Source: a virus
Length of the DNA stretch: 37,508 nucleotides
Reading direction: 5' to 3' (one strand)
Virus record (IMG/VR): IMGVR_UViG_3300037520_000240
Location: 1 to 37,508 of that record
The notes under the pieces were generated by a model that had not been told where the DNA came from, did not search any database, and saw only the letters and a program-made list of their open reading frames with translations. Positions 23,539 through 37,508 of this stretch are shown piece by piece. Each line of letters opens with the position of its first letter. The stretch's first letter is position 1. The position numbers and the translations under genes were made by a program.

Positions 23539-25494
23539 ATGACTAAACTTTGGATCGATTTCGAAACGCGCAGCCGGTGCGACCTTCGCAGCCGCGGCGT
23601 GTACAATTACGCGCAGGACACCAGCACCGACGTGCTATGTATGTCATACGCATTTGATGACGAAGACGTGCGGACGTGGCTACCCAGTGAGCCTTTCCCG
23701 CAAGCCGTGCATGATCACAAGGGGCTGGTGTACGCGCACAACGCAGCGTTTGAGCGCCTGATATTCTGGTATGTCCTTCAGATAGATTTTAAGCTGGAGC
23801 AGTTCTACTGCACCGCAGCCCAAGCCCGCGCCAACTGCGCGCCGGGTAGCCTTGAGGATGTGGGCCGCTTTGCTGGCGCTACCATGAAGAAAGACCACCG
23901 CGGCGGGCAACTGATCCGCGCGCTGTCCATCCCGCAAGGCACCGGCGAGTTTCGCCAAGACGCAAAGCTGATGCAAGAGATGGTTGACTATTGCGAACAG
24001 GACGTGCGGGCCATGCGTGCCATAGCGCAGGCGCAGCGCCCGCTGTCCGACGAAGAGTTGGCCGACTATCACATCAACGAGCGGATCAACGACCGCGGGG
24101 TATTGCTTGACAGGCCGCTGGCGTTGGCAGCGGTGCGCTACGCTGAAGCTGAATTGGCTGAGATACAAAACATCGTCGCAGAGGTGACGCATGGCGAGAT
24201 TAAGTCCGTCCGCAGCCCCAAGATGAAGGATTGGGTGTTAGCTAGGGTAGGGCCACAGGCTGTAGCCGTGGCGACCGTGATGAAGGATGGCGTCGAGAAG
24301 CTGTCCATTGACAAGAACGTGCGCGCCAACTTACTTGTGCTGGCAGAGGAGAACCCAGATGAAGTACCGGCGGAAGTTGCGGAAGTCATCCAGTGCGCGG
24401 ACGATCTGTGGGCATCGTCCGTCGCTAAATTCCAACGTGCAGCGGCGCTTGCTGATGCGGAGGATTTTCGCGTTAGAGGAGCGTTCGTATTTTCTGGAGG
24501 CAGTGCTACTGGGCGCGCTTCATCGTTTGGGCTTCAGGTCCATAACTTCCCAAGAAAGTGCGCCGCAGACCCTGCATTAGTAAGGCAGGCTATGGTGCGC
24601 GGGCACAGGATTGTCCCTGATCATGGCCGGCGCGTAACAGACGTGCTGAAAGGTATGCTGCGCCCATCACTGATGGCTGACAAAGGCAAGCGCCTTGTGG
24701 TTGCCGATTGGGCTGCGATTGAAGCGCGGGTGACGCCGTGGGCGTCCGACAGTGCCTTCGGTGAGGGCAAGTTGGCAATCTTTGCCAAGGGTGAAGATGT
24801 GTACAAGCACAACGCTATGGCGACCTTTGCTGTCAAATATGATGACGTTAACAAAGACCAGCGCCAGATCGGCAAGGTTCAAGAGTTAGCCTGTGGCTTT
24901 GCAGGCGGCGTCGGTGCGTTCGCCAGCATGGGCCGCATCTATGGTCTGATAATGTCAGAAAGCAACGCCAAGCGGATGGTGGACGCATGGCGCAGGGCTA
25001 ACAAGTGGGCCGTGCCGTACTGGGCTGGCCTTGAAGAGACTTATATGCGTGCCATGCGGAACAAGAACTGTGAGTTTACGACGGGCCGCGTCACATATTT
25101 ATTCGACGGACTGCATCTTTGGTATGCGCTTCCGTCTGGACGTGTGTTATGTTATCCTTTCGCCCGTTTCGACGAGGAAGGCAACCTGACCTACGCGAAG
25201 GCTTCTTGGAAGCCCGCCGCTGATGCAAAGGAGTGGCCTAGGGCGCGGCTATGGCGCGGTTTGGCGTGTGAGAACATCACGCAGGCTGTCGCTAACGACT
25301 TGCTGCGCTACGCCTTGCGCCGGCTGGACGATGTAGTCTTGCACATCCACGATGAAATCGTCTTGGAAGTGCCAGAAGCAGATGCAGAGGCCGCAGCAGC
25401 GCGGCTGGTGCAAGTTATGTGTGAGCCGCCACCTTGGGCAGCAGGGCTACCCCTGAACGCTGAAGTGGCAATTATGGAACGTTATGGCAAATAA
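23539..25494 (+). CDS. Family A DNA polymerase with 3'-5' exonuclease
   Basis: 651 aa. The N-terminus holds Exo I (LWIDFETRS, D7 and E9), with the rest of the DEDD exonuclease through ~180. The polymerase motifs are A (VVADWAAIEARV, D390), B (RQIGKVQELACGFAGGVGAF, ~443-463) and C (LHIHDEIVLEVPE, D605). This layout matches the T7-independent PolA group of many phages with a Gly-rich motif B. It would be the replicative polymerase. It sits between the SSB candidate and the primase-helicase; the last gene begins 10 bases after its stop. Confidence 0.92.
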   Translation: MTKLWIDFETRSRCDLRSRGVYNYAQDTSTDVLCMSYAFDDEDVRTWLPSEPFPQAVHDHKGLVYAHNAAFERLIFWYVLQIDFKLEQFYCTAAQARANCAPGSLEDVGRFAGATMKKDHRGGQLIRALSIPQGTGEFRQDAKLMQEMVDYCEQDVRAMRAIAQAQRPLSDEELADYHINERINDRGVLLDRPLALAAVRYAEAELAEIQNIVAEVTHGEIKSVRSPKMKDWVLARVGPQAVAVATVMKDGVEKLSIDKNVRANLLVLAEENPDEVPAEVAEVIQCADDLWASSVAKFQRAAALADAEDFRVRGAFVFSGGSATGRASSFGLQVHNFPRKCAADPALVRQAMVRGHRIVPDHGRRVTDVLKGMLRPSLMADKGKRLVVADWAAIEARVTPWASDSAFGEGKLAIFAKGEDVYKHNAMATFAVKYDDVNKDQRQIGKVQELACGFAGGVGAFASMGRIYGLIMSESNAKRMVDAWRRANKWAVPYWAGLEETYMRAMRNKNCEFTTGRVTYLFDGLHLWYALPSGRVLCYPFARFDEEGNLTYAKASWKPAADAKEWPRARLWRGLACENITQAVANDLLRYALRRLDDVVLHIHDEIVLEVPEADAEAAAARLVQVMCEPPPWAAGLPLNAEVAIMERYGK

Positions 25495-25504
25495 GGAGCA
25501 AGCG

Positions 25505-27853
25505 ATGAGTGAGGATCGCACGAAATTCATAGACTACATAGTTGGTTTAGCCGCTGATACAGTGGGCGAGACAGCTTTGTTAGTGCGTCAGAAGCCCACA
25601 CGCGGCGAGGACGGCAACCTGATCTACCATGCAGATGGCGCGCCGAAGGCCACCTTCCCTGCGTTCCTGCCTGAGAAGGCGCGCATCAAGGATGATGAGG
25701 CATGGTATGTGAATACCGGCTCGTTCGTCGTTGACCGCTTTGTAGACGGCAAGCCGGCTGCAAAGTCCAGCAACGTCGAGTTCGTCCTGTTTATGATGCT
25801 GGATGACATCGGCACAAAATCTAAGACGCCGCCGCTTGACCCGACATGGATACTAGAAACCAGCGAAGGTTCGTTTCAGTGGGGCTATGCGTTCAACGAA
25901 CAACCAAACAAAGGCGACTTCTGCGCTGCCGTCAAGGCTATTGCGGACGCCGGCTACACTGATCCGGGCGCGACCAACGCTGTCCGTAACTGTCGCATCC
26001 CCGGCAGTATCAACTTAAAGAGCGGACGCGGCAACTTTCCTGCGCGGCTGGTCGAGTTCCACCCAGACCGCGAATACACTTTAGAGCAGATTTGTAGTGC
26101 GTTAGGCGTTACGCCAGAAGAAGGCGACACGGCGGACTATAAAGCCGTAAAGATACGCGACACTGGAATGGACAACGTCCTGACATGGTTGAGCGAAAAG
26201 AACCTAGTCCTCAGCGCGCCTAACAACGACGGCTGGTGCGGCATTGTCTGCCCTAACCATCAGGAACACAGCGACGGCATGATCGAAGCGCGCTACAAGC
26301 CGCTGGATCGTTCGTTCTGCTGCTACCACGGCCATTGCCAAGACTTAGACAGCCGGACGTTTCTTGATTGGGTAGCCAACGAAGGTGGCCCGAAGGCAAC
26401 GCCGGGGTTGCGTGATGAACTGATCGCTGAACGGATGGCGTCGATGATGGACAAGATTTCGCCTACGGAAGCCTTCCCTGACGAAGCCGCAGCGCGTGTG
26501 CGTGAGGTCGAAAAGAAAGAGGCAGGACGGCTGGAACAAAGCGAGTGGTTTGAGCGTTTCGCTTATATACAGTCTGATGACTGCTATTTCGACATGGTCA
26601 CACGTCAAGAGATAGCGCGTAACGTCTTTAACGCCCTGTTCCGTCACGTTGACTGTCGCTCCATCCACAAGAAGACGCAGCGCGTGCAATCATCCATCTA
26701 TTTTGATGAGCGTCGGCAGGATCGCGGCGCGCCAGCATTGGCAGCCGTGACGTTTGCCGCTGGTGATGATGTGCTAGTGACGCGCGACGGGTTGGTCTAC
26801 GGCAACAGGTGGACAAACGCCCGCCCTGACGTAGCTGAAAGCGACAAGATTGCAGACCATGATGTCGAGCCTTGGCTTGAGCATTGCCGCAACCTGATTA
26901 CGGATGACAGGGATTTAGACCATATCCTTAACGCTATGGCGTTCAAGATACAGAACCCCCGCGTTAAGATTAACCATGCCATCCTAATTGGCGGCGACGA
27001 AGGCGCGGGCAAGGATACTATATTCCAGCCGTTTCTATGGGCGCTTGGCGGCAGTAACTGGCGCAACAGGTCGGTCATCGAAGCTGGCGGATTGGAAAGC
27101 CAGTGGGGTTATGCGCTTGAGGCTGAAGTGGTCATCCTGAACGAGTTAAAGGAACCAGAGGCAAGAGAGCGCCGAGCGATGGCTAACAAGTTAAAGCCGC
27201 TGATCGCTGCGCCGCCTGCAACGCTGTCGGTTAACCGTAAGGGTATGCACCCTTACGACTTGGTCAACCGCTTGATGGTGCTTGCCTACACGAACGACTC
27301 GCTACCTATCACCCTGCCTACGCAGGATCGCCGTTGGTTCTGCGTCTGGACGCACGCGCCGCGCATGACAACGCCAGCAGCCGACGCGCTGTGGGGCTGG
27401 TATGAGACAGGCGGCTATGAGAAGTGCGCCGCTTGGCTGCACCAGCGCGACGTTTCGTCGTTCAACCCTTCTGCGCCGCCGCCAGTGACCGAATGGAAGC
27501 TGAACATGGTCGAGCATGGTATGAGCGCCGCCGAAAGCTATCTGGTCGAGTTGATGCGCCAGCGTGGGGGTCTGTTTGCTGATGGTGTTATCGGTGGGCC
27601 GTTCCACCGCATCTGCGACTTGCTTGGGCCTCTATTGCCTGTCGGCATAAAGGTTCCACCGGCTGCACTGCTTCATGCGTTTAAGGAAGCTGGCTGGATC
27701 GACATGGGCCGCCTCAATTCAAAAGAACATATGAACAAAAAGCATATCTTTGCCGCGCCTGAAGTGATCCAAAAATATAACAAATCAGAGTTGCGCCGCA
27801 TGGCGGAAGTGTTGCCAAACAGTAGTATTATGCCAACGCTAGGCAAGAATTGA
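25505..27853 (+). CDS. Primase-helicase (AEP-like primase plus SF3/DUF5906 helicase)
   Basis: 782 aa from ATG 25505, chosen because AAGGAG lies 7 bases upstream; ATG 25484 lies inside the polymerase gene. The N-terminal part looks like an archaeo-eukaryotic primase: LFMMLDDIG with metal-binding D100/D101 and RNCRIPGSINLKSG (161-174). A Cys/His knuckle follows (C245...C249, H252, C272/C273, H275/H277, C278). The C-terminus is a DUF5906/SF3-type ATPase: GGDEGAGKDT (K503) and VVILNELKE (E547), as in the phage NrS-1 primase-polymerase. It would unwind and prime at the origin; whether it recognises the iterons is not known. Confidence 0.85.
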   Translation: MSEDRTKFIDYIVGLAADTVGETALLVRQKPTRGEDGNLIYHADGAPKATFPAFLPEKARIKDDEAWYVNTGSFVVDRFVDGKPAAKSSNVEFVLFMMLDDIGTKSKTPPLDPTWILETSEGSFQWGYAFNEQPNKGDFCAAVKAIADAGYTDPGATNAVRNCRIPGSINLKSGRGNFPARLVEFHPDREYTLEQICSALGVTPEEGDTADYKAVKIRDTGMDNVLTWLSEKNLVLSAPNNDGWCGIVCPNHQEHSDGMIEARYKPLDRSFCCYHGHCQDLDSRTFLDWVANEGGPKATPGLRDELIAERMASMMDKISPTEAFPDEAAARVREVEKKEAGRLEQSEWFERFAYIQSDDCYFDMVTRQEIARNVFNALFRHVDCRSIHKKTQRVQSSIYFDERRQDRGAPALAAVTFAAGDDVLVTRDGLVYGNRWTNARPDVAESDKIADHDVEPWLEHCRNLITDDRDLDHILNAMAFKIQNPRVKINHAILIGGDEGAGKDTIFQPFLWALGGSNWRNRSVIEAGGLESQWGYALEAEVVILNELKEPEARERRAMANKLKPLIAAPPATLSVNRKGMHPYDLVNRLMVLAYTNDSLPITLPTQDRRWFCVWTHAPRMTTPAADALWGWYETGGYEKCAAWLHQRDVSSFNPSAPPPVTEWKLNMVEHGMSAAESYLVELMRQRGGLFADGVIGGPFHRICDLLGPLLPVGIKVPPAALLHAFKEAGWIDMGRLNSKEHMNKKHIFAAPEVIQKYNKSELRRMAEVLPNSSIMPTLGKN

Positions 27854-30755: not shown

Positions 30756-31094
30756 TTACGCTGCGATTGCAGCTTGCGTCCGAACATGGGCTGGCAAGTC
30801 TTGCAACTTACAGGCGACATTGAGCGCAACAATCATTGGGCCGCATTCATATGCGATGCACGATGCGCGTTCGATTGCGGGCAAATCATCGCGCCCGGCG
30901 AAATCATATGCCCTCAAGCAAGCGTTGAACGATGCAACGGCACCTTGACGCCCGCGCTCATTATTAGTGAATGATGCCCACGAATCATGCGCTTCGGCTT
31001 GCTCAATAAGCGCAGCGCGGAATGCGCCATTGTGGCATTCGATTGACCGGGTAAGAATGTCCCGGGCGGTTGGGTTGGTTGGCAAATCATACAT
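30756..31094 (-). CDS. First leftward early gene, unrecognised 112-aa protein
   Basis: 112 aa from ATG 31094, with GGAG 8 bases upstream. The frame opens further upstream but would read the GACGTC iterons as RHSGRHSGRHS and cross the promoter, so the longer start is rejected. The protein is helical (LTRSIECHNGAFRAALIEQA; FNACLRAYDFAGRDDLPAIE) with three cysteines. Being promoter-proximal and separated from the rest by a hairpin, it may be the most abundant early product. Function unknown. Confidence 0.65.
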   Translation of the reverse strand: MYDLPTNPTARDILTRSIECHNGAFRAALIEQAEAHDSWASFTNNERGRQGAVASFNACLRAYDFAGRDDLPAIERASCIAYECGPMIVALNVACKLQDLPAHVRTQAAIAA

Positions 31095-31125: not shown

Positions 31126-31153
31126 CTTATATACCCTCTTAAAATACTGTCAA
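31126..31153 (-). promoter_or_regulatory. Near-consensus leftward sigma-70 promoter
   Basis: On the minus strand TTGACA (31153-31148), a 16-base spacer and TATAAG (31131-31126). A perfect -35 and a 5/6 -10. Transcription would start near 31119, giving a ~25-base leader before ATG 31094. Likely the main early promoter. Confidence 0.75.
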
Positions 31154-31196: not shown

Positions 31197-31341
31197 ATGA
31201 CGTCCCGAATGACGTCCCGAATGACGTCCCAAATGACAACCGATTATAACGAAAATAAATCTGTGGATAACTTACACAAAATGGACGTCATCGGACGTCA
31301 TTAGGGACGTCATTATTTAGAGGCAAATGACGTCCGGATTA
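31197..31341. other. Putative replication origin core: iterons and DnaA box
   Basis: GACGTC-centred iterons of consensus AATGACGTCCC lie at 31199, 31211 and 31223 (direct, 12-base period), a degenerate fourth near 31233, then at 31284, 31294 and 31306 in opposite orientation and at 31329 in direct orientation. A perfect DnaA box (TGTGGATAA, complement of TTATCCACA) sits at 31262-31270 between the two groups. Further GACGTC copies lie at 31486, 31582 and 31591. The AT-rich tract 31371-31440 adjoins. The layout resembles iteron-controlled origins. Confidence 0.7.
31262..31270 (-). promoter_or_regulatory. DnaA box (perfect consensus)
   Basis: TGTGGATAA on the plus strand is TTATCCACA on the minus strand, the full-strength Escherichia coli-type DnaA box. 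It lies between two oppositely oriented iteron clusters. Confidence 0.75.
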
Positions 31342-31370
31342 TTGGCGGAATTGCGCCGTTTGGGGATGCT

Positions 31371-31440
31371 AATTGTCATATTGCCATTATATTTGTTTAA
31401 AGTCAGGTTTTAAAAAATGGGTATATATATAACCTATACG
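31371..31440. other. AT-rich tract, possible DNA-unwinding element
   Basis: About 70 bases of high AT content including TTTTAAAAAA and TATATATATAA, next to the iterons and DnaA box. It is the most AT-rich stretch near the putative origin and overlaps the second leftward promoter candidate. Confidence 0.5.
31386..31414 (-). promoter_or_regulatory. Second leftward promoter candidate crossing the origin
   Basis: On the minus strand TTTAAA (31414-31409), a 17-base spacer and a perfect TATAAT (31391-31386). A transcript would cross the iterons and DnaA box, as transcription that activates or primes an origin does. AT-rich DNA makes chance matches more likely. Confidence 0.4.
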
Positions 31441-31496
31441 GTACGCTGTACGCATTTCGTCAGCGACTGGTGTTTTCGAAATCATGACGTCCCTTA

Positions 31497-31778
31497 CTGT
31501 ATTAACACAGTAACACACCTAGCTGTTTGTTCTCATGGTTGACGTTAACGTCACGCATTCCCCAGTGAATTAAATTGTCATGACGTCCGTGACGTCTGCT
31601 GGTGTATTAATACACTAACACACCTAGCTAGCTAGCAATGTGTTTTTTCCAATTCGCGCAAGCGCCGAAAGGGAAAGGCCATTTCTATTCCAGCAGGAAC
31701 ATAAGCAGAACGCTAATCACTGTGTTAACACAGCAACACAGCTAATGCTGGCAGCACTGTGTTAGTGTATTAATACAG
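31497..31778. repeat. Four-copy 14-bp palindrome array, operator candidate
   Basis: Copies of consensus CTGTRTTAAYACAG at 31497-31510, 31602-31615 (GTGTATTAATACAC, perfect), 31720-31733 (CTGTGTTAACACAG, perfect) and 31765-31778. The first two also share the 3' flank TAACACACCTAGCT (31511-31524, 31616-31629), and the last two share ACTGTGTTA. They lie between the origin iterons and the terS promoter. Binding of a dimeric regulator to the palindromes is inferred. Confidence 0.65.
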
Positions 31779-31894: not shown

Positions 31895-32404
31895 ATGACT
31901 TTCTACTCACTGCCATTTACACCAGAGCGGGTGCAAGCCACCGAGTCGCGGCTGGAGTCTATCTATGAAGCTGCCCGCTACGGCCTAAAGGGTGACAGCC
32001 TAGCTATGGCCGCCGGCATGACACCCAAACAATTTCGTGTGTTGGCCGACGCAGACCCGCTGGTCGAGATGGCAGAGATCAAAGGTCGTGCCGACGGCGA
32101 GATGGTAGCGGCCAAAACCATGTACGAAGCGGCACGCGATGGCGACAGCAAGGCTGCGCTGGAGATACTCAAGCATCAGCACGGCTGGGTAGCCAAGCAG
32201 CAGATCGACGTAAACATAGACCAACAGATAAGTATCACAGGCGCGCTAGAAAAAGCACAGACGCGCGTCATCGAAGGGCTGTACACAGAACTGCCCCGAC
32301 TAGAGGAAGAGACTAATGGCAGACAAATTGACACCGGAAGAGCAGGAAGTCTTGGACTATCACCGTCGCAACTTAGCGACAGGGATGTATCAGAAGAACG
32401 CTGA
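31895..32404 (+). CDS. terS: Terminase small subunit
   Basis: 169 aa from ATG 31895 (MTFYSLPFTPERVQ); an in-frame GTG at 31808 would add a chance extension. Residues ~28-45 (GDSLAMAAGMTPKQFRVLAD) form a helix-turn-helix and residues ~70-100 a helical oligomerisation region (AAKTMYEAARDGDSKAALEI), followed by KHQHGW. This is the usual plan of small terminases, which recognise packaging DNA, and the large terminase lies nearby. The 3' end overlaps the next gene by 89 bases, unusual for a phage. Confidence 0.72.
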   Translation: MTFYSLPFTPERVQATESRLESIYEAARYGLKGDSLAMAAGMTPKQFRVLADADPLVEMAEIKGRADGEMVAAKTMYEAARDGDSKAALEILKHQHGWVAKQQIDVNIDQQISITGALEKAQTRVIEGLYTELPRLEEETNGRQIDTGRAGSLGLSPSQLSDRDVSEER

Positions 32405-37216: not shown

Positions 37217-37508
37217 TGACCGTAAGCCTCAAACATACCTTTCAGTCTGCCAAAGACGATAGCCTTGACGTAACAGTTATTCAGCCGTCCAATTGGAACG
37301 AAGAGCATGAGTTGGAACTTGCCACCAATAAGCTGCTAGGCCGCGCTACCGCTGGCACAGGCGCTGCTGAAGAGATTGGTATAGGCGCTGCCTTGTCAAT
37401 ATCTGGCGGCACGCTGGCTGTTACTAACGTGCCTGTCGCTAACGGCGGTACAGGCGCATCAACGCTGACAGGCTACGTTAAGGGCAACGGTACATCTGCG
37501 TTTACGGC
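37216..37508 (+). CDS. N-terminus of tail fiber (runs off the window)
   Basis: The first 97 codons of a fiber gene starting MTVSLKHTFQSAKDDSLDVT with a TAATG overlap to the portal. The N-terminal ~35 residues (VIQPSNWNEEHEL) match a short phage fiber attachment module. LGRATAGTGAAEEIGIG and GGTGASTLTGYVKGNGTSAF follow, the same text as at position 1. If circular, it continues at base 172 to give a full Gly-rich fiber; otherwise it is a paralog of the gene at 1. Confidence 0.8.
   Translation, partial: MTVSLKHTFQSAKDDSLDVTVIQPSNWNEEHELELATNKLLGRATAGTGAAEEIGIGAALSISGGTLAVTNVPVANGGTGASTLTGYVKGNGTSAFT
37338..37508. repeat. Right copy of imperfect terminal repeat
   Basis: Matches 1-171 with 12 substitutions and no gaps, as described for the left copy. 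Most changes are synonymous. Confidence 0.9.

Follow-up and report, generated by a model that had tools for sequence, protein, structure and literature searches.

A repeat array that very probably marks the start of DNA copying in an aquatic podophage co-varies with the wing loop of its primase-helicase

Where does this phage start to copy its DNA, and which of its proteins recognizes the place? The question is raised by a cluster of short repeats upstream of the putative terminase small subunit gene (terS) in a viral record of 37,508 bases (IMGVR_UViG_3300037520_000240; the whole stretch is referred to as the window). The record seems to represent a complete genome whose map is circular, because its ends (1–171 and 37338–37508) overlap with 159 of 171 bases identical (93%) and the junction is spanned by a near-identical record (L019). 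The gene order, which is kept in IMG/VR relatives, is replication module, small leftward genes, repeat array, putative terS, terL, and portal. The replication module encodes a helicase, a DUF2800 nuclease-like protein, a family-A DNA polymerase, and a primase-helicase (25484–27853, + strand) consisting of a weak RepB_primase-like N-terminal region, a DUF5906 helicase, and a C-terminal winged helix. The head module belongs to the type that is annotated as P22-like in ctNMl277, a named relative, and includes portal, major head, terminase, and head-closure genes, so that the phage does not fit the definition of a satellite as an element without its own capsid genes. A near-identity search of phage records gave no match to the window, and the host could not be named, the sole genome match being a contig binned from a Lake Erken metagenome. 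RNA families and tRNAs were searched for in the window, and none were found.

The first-pass annotation had proposed an iteron-type origin here on the basis of ten clustered GACGTC sites, where chance predicted roughly 0.1. All ten GACGTC of the window were located within 31199–31596 (starting at 31199, 31211, 31223, 31284, 31294, 31306, 31329, 31486, 31582, and 31591), and a count over the whole genome revealed no copy outside the array; shuffled sequences gave an expectation of ~7.5 per whole window, or ~0.08 per 400 bases. The clustering was thus confirmed, but the palindrome did not hold as the repeat unit. The unit is the asymmetric 9-mer ATGACGTCC, with nine exact copies (six direct, three inverted) that all lie within 31197–31588 and none elsewhere in the window. 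The palindromic core is incidental, because relatives have non-palindromic versions at the same position.

As had been described, three direct copies with 12-base spacing (31197, 31209, and 31221; block 31197–31229, + strand) are followed by a perfect DnaA box, TTATCCACA (31262–31270, − strand), and by three copies in the opposite orientation (31283, 31293, and 31305, with spacings of 10 and 12; block 31283–31313, − strand). A lone direct copy is found at 31327–31335 (+ strand). The end had been stated as 31341, but the array runs to ~31597: past an AT-rich tract lie a further direct copy (31484–31492, + strand) and a tandem 9-bp pair (31580–31597, + strand; exact ATGACGTCC at 31580 and GTGACGTCT at 31589), and relatives have tandem pairs at the matching place. 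The direct-repeat array is restricted to a single non-coding region, which fulfills the criterion for an iteron origin, and the two iteron sets (31197–31335 and 31484–31597) flank the AT-rich tract, as is required of PICI/SaPI origins. Separately, four palindromes TGTNTTAANACA are situated between the array and terS (31498–31509, 31603–31614, 31721–31732, and 31766–31777). Palindromes of this type were detected at 29 sites in the matching region of 58 relatives and at none in 863 kb elsewhere, and they are likely operators of another DNA-binding protein.

The DnaA box between the first direct block and the inverted block is the sole perfect one in the window, and one per 37 kb is by itself the chance level (1.03 expected). 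Its weight comes from position and conservation, not from this single occurrence. In family 1, 26 DnaA boxes were found in 34.8 kb of array regions versus 7 in 880 kb elsewhere (~94-fold enrichment), and the array region carries a box in 26 of 58 non-redundant relatives. In family 2, 24 boxes were found in 63 kb of array regions (11 of 63 loci) versus 2 in 738 kb elsewhere. These counts are not independent, because the loci are related. Comparison of relatives revealed that the box persists while the surrounding iterons change; it is not essential, since about half of the relatives, and most of family 2, lack an exact match.

The AT-rich tract reported next to the iterons was also borne out: 31375–31449 adjoins them with an AT fraction of 0.68–0.74 in 50-base windows, compared with ~0.46 for the genome, and is a candidate unwinding element. 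The AT-richest stretch is at a similar place in the loci of most relatives. The dyad AACC(T/A)AT(A/T)(C/T)GGTT occurred at a near-constant place in 33 of the 58 array regions and was absent from 863 kb elsewhere. Another sequence, GACGTTAACGT, was present in 21 of the 58 regions upstream of terS and almost absent elsewhere; both it and the dyad are independent of iteron type. An inflection of cumulative GC skew at 31.2 kb, which had been suggested as a check, was not seen in the window. We rejected GC and AT skew as an origin test, as it tracks gene orientation and is uninformative; skew neither supports nor opposes an origin here.

Loss of the array in relatives would have spoken against an origin. 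The layout upstream of terS was kept: iterons occur in either orientation, accompanied by an AT-rich tract, tandem iterons, and, in roughly half of the loci, a DnaA box; place and plan are thus conserved, and the sequence is not always so. The iteron types of relatives differ (ATGACGTC, ATAGCCTA, ATGACCCA, ATGACCTA, ATG(A/G)CAAC, ATTGCCTA, and TTGTCCACA), and the 8–9-mers in their equal-plan arrays upstream of terS include ATAGCCTAG, ATGACCCAG, ATGACCTAC, ATG(A/G)CAAC, and ATTGCCTAG. Arrays of the same plan with other 8–9-mers indicate that the reader of the site has changed specificity. The relatives are not independent samples, and some were less clear than others. L079 and L130 had no clear array, and L068 and L069, which share one loop in the primase-helicase, received different labels for arrays that are weak and mixed. 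The loop residues N-S-K are present in all six loci that had no type call (L024, L025, L033, L041, L086, and L087), and the recognizable sites of these loci, few in some, are of the ATG(A/G)C(A/G) kind. Two motif-scan finds in unrelated contigs (L009 and L015) were rejected as arrays; their matches were attributed to chance, because both are coding sequence of one portal-like gene (NDVQNDVRDDV).

More distant phages were similar in arrangement. The primase-helicase of ctNMl277 is 53% identical to that of the window and has the wing CFAPELS, with GTTTACATAAAC repeats at the same place. This phage (MW202483; L098:7083-7379) also encodes a 98-aa protein annotated as a DnaA helix-turn-helix just after the primase-helicase, and none was seen in the window. 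Phage DSL-LC05 (L205:3594-4126), a named lake phage with a similar gene order, has TGACCCACTGGGT-type repeats near terS. In the regions upstream of terS of L132–L204, the iteron type TTGTCCACA equals the DnaA box TTATCCACA with one base different, and such iterons might mimic or attract DnaA.

The first-pass annotation had left the reader unidentified, naming the primase-helicase or one of the small early proteins as candidates. We calculated, for 16 conserved proteins, the information of each alignment column about iteron type, with types called from DNA alone. The most informative columns were residues 745, 747, 750, and 751 of the primase-helicase in window numbering (alignment columns 746, 748, 751, and 752). 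These lie in the wing-loop codons N745-S-K-E-H-M-N751 (27716–27736, + strand). The association of iteron base 6 (C versus G/A) with residue 745 (N versus G/A/H) was at the top of 2,073 variable columns: residue 745 split 42 distinct proteins by base 6 with no exception, and each trait changed 8 times on the tree of protein bodies. Iteron type itself was nearly random on that tree, with 16 changes compared with a shuffled mean of 19.65, and pairs with 96–99% identical protein bodies differed in loop and array alike. The N-S-K loop went with ATGAC(G/A) or ATGGCA iterons, G-S-T/S/V mostly with ATAGCCTA, H/A-S-V mostly with ATGACCCA, and G-S-K with ATGACCTA. Across ~120 relatives, the repeat sequence and a few residues in the wing of the primase-helicase changed together, and iteron type tracked the wing loop (745–751), not TerS or any other tested protein. 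The small leftward proteins were rejected as readers, their association with iteron type being lower than that of the primase-helicase. This co-variation, like the anatomy of the array and the conservation of its plan, is demonstrated. It points to the primase-helicase, among the candidates named earlier, as the putative iteron reader; binding is inferred from the comparison of sequences, without binding data.

We then used a held-out set of 64 non-redundant new loci from two further scans. Sixty-three fit, and the remaining one had no recognizable array. GST occurred with ATAGCCTA (5/5), NSK with ATGACGTC (1/1), and ASS/ASG with TGACCCA (31/31); these 37 loci obeyed the rule learned earlier. 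A new loop, KSR, occurred with TTGTCCACA (26/26), and this link is an observation rather than a prediction, because it was discovered in the held-out loci themselves. The association recurred independently in a second family, whose primase-helicase shares ~59% identity with that of the window. Among its 63 distinct proteins, with 6 switches on the body tree, seven columns fully determined the type, and all of them are wing positions or close to the wing.

Modelling of the whole primase-helicase gave a poor result (pLDDT 43), and the C-terminal model alone was used. Residues 670–789 were modelled (pLDDT 80, pTM 0.72) with the helix-strand order of a winged helix, in which the predicted wing, the loop joining the last two strands, is made up of the co-varying residues. 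A fold search with this model gave only weak, non-significant matches, mostly winged-helix proteins (best E 0.06). Neither the fold search nor a profile search of the PDB yielded a match to the P4 origin-binding domain, and the profile search gave nothing relevant. A Pfam search of the primase-helicase did not detect TOPRIM, just a sub-threshold RepB_primase match.

Could the array serve something other than replication? The alternative that survives best, although we regard it as improbable, is an operator region, on which the primase-helicase or an early protein would control a leftward early promoter and the rightward terminase genes while replication starts elsewhere. The array does lie between divergent gene sets. 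Immediately to its left is a candidate leftward promoter (31126–31153, − strand), read by eye as a −35 TTGACA (31153–31148), a 16-base spacer, and a −10 TATAAG (31131–31126), which was absent from the list of a consensus promoter scan; the first leftward gene (30756–31094, − strand) encodes 112 aa without a family match. Plasmid Rep proteins, too, often repress from iterons. Nevertheless, the inferred reader is a replicative primase-helicase whose gene does not adjoin the array, and the DnaA box and AT-rich tract are retained while the iterons change. The operator and origin roles could also coexist.

Still less probable is hitch-hiking, in which the wing and the array would travel on one recombining block and another protein would read the array. 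The two are 3.4 kb apart in a mosaic early region, which would permit this; yet co-variation is weaker for the intervening genes and for terS on the far side, and the leftward ORF clusters do not follow iteron type, except small single-type clusters with few members. In the pairs L055/L042, L059/L057, and L036/L030, wing and array have switched jointly, yet the DNA around the wing still aligns. Alignment in such discordant pairs extends through the wing and the neighbouring genes but fails at the array, and on this sequence evidence the switch does not resemble a single transferred block. Moreover, the same residues mark the type in two families that are only ~59% identical. That the array is a pac or cos packaging site recognized by the terminase small subunit is nearly refuted: pac sites are often in or near terS, and the gene directly after the array is a putative terS (31895–32404, + strand; assigned by its position before terL, without a family hit), but TerS columns are little informative on iteron type (top 0.6 of ~2 bits), and TerS is rejected as the reader because identical TerS proteins go with different arrays (e.g. 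ATGACCCA in L059 and ATGGCAAC in L057).

We therefore return to the origin, which the conserved place and plan, the ~94-fold enrichment of the box, and the wing co-variation support as the iteron type with a DnaA box that had been proposed; origin activity itself has not been shown. The repeat cluster very probably marks the start of DNA copying. With high confidence, we assign 31197–31597 as the replication origin, the 9-bp iterons of which are bound by the C-terminal winged helix of the primase-helicase, with the wing loop (745–751) setting the 9-mer. Physical binding, melting, the start of synthesis, and the role of DnaA are inferred. In the proposed mechanism, the winged helix would bind the iterons, and residues 745–751 would choose which 9-mer is read. 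Host DnaA would probably help at the central box, in lineages that keep it. The protein, bound in opposite orientations flanking the box and beyond the AT-rich tract, would melt the tract. The bound primase-helicase would load its own helicase and then prime, and synthesis would pass to the phage family-A DNA polymerase.

Iteron plasmid origins have iterons, a DnaA box, and an AT-rich tract, as here; the inferred reader in this phage, however, is a fused primase-helicase and not a stand-alone Rep initiator. In a single protein, P4 alpha unites primase and helicase with a C-terminal winged helix by which it binds origin repeats (PMC4234260, citing Yeo et al., 2002). P4 alpha, SaPI/PICI Rep, and SCC Cch2 are described as opening the origin and as recognizing its iterons through a C-terminal domain or a winged helix (PMC4234260, PMC6092414, PMC7581432). 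The modelled C-terminal winged helix of the reader is common to P4 alpha and this phage. P4, in contrast, has a TOPRIM-type primase, for which the window protein offers at best a weak RepB_primase-like match, and this phage has its own family-A polymerase and a DnaA box. In SaPI Rep, iteron recognition resides in the C-terminal domain (PMC7581432), and the combination of primase and Rep helicase, sometimes fused, is shared between PICI/SaPI and this phage. The present system differs in belonging to a complete phage, not a satellite, in having a DnaA box within the array and many iteron types, and in the location of the array, which is 3.4 kb from the primase-helicase gene with small genes between, unlike the PICI origin directly 3′ of its gene. 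The putative origin of SCCmec Cch2 lies beside the gene and has different iterons, and its system has a separate primase-polymerase. In the PLE satellites of Vibrio cholerae, the DNA-binding domain of RepA and the origin co-vary and have been repeatedly swapped, and only matching pairs replicate (PMC8263062). RepA is not a primase-helicase, though, and its DNA-binding domain is N-terminal; PLEs have two origin groups, whereas at least seven iteron types occur here across >100 loci. The best reading of these analogies is that the phage origin would work like those of P4 alpha and PICI/SaPI/SCC Rep, with exchangeable specificity. It is the PICI plan plus a DnaA box in a complete phage, with at least seven iteron types. 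We do not claim membership of the P4 or PICI families, because origin location, primase type, and kind of element all differ and the reading domain is without detected homology.

Types switch so that phages with near-identical replication proteins differ in iteron type. We suggest, only tentatively and with somewhat more doubt than conviction, that these are distinct origin types for which the wing residues form a readable code (745 specifying base 6, and 747 linked to bases 3–4), and that they are exchanged frequently, driven by origin conflict with co-infecting phages, satellites, or origin-directed nucleases. For aquatic podophages of this large and essentially uncharacterised group, the analysis provides an origin from sequence alone, names a protein as its reader, and yields a testable residue-to-base code, at the strengths given above. 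With such a series of naturally matched variants of protein and DNA, one can study how an initiator changes in concert with all of its sites and what leads phages to diversify their origins.
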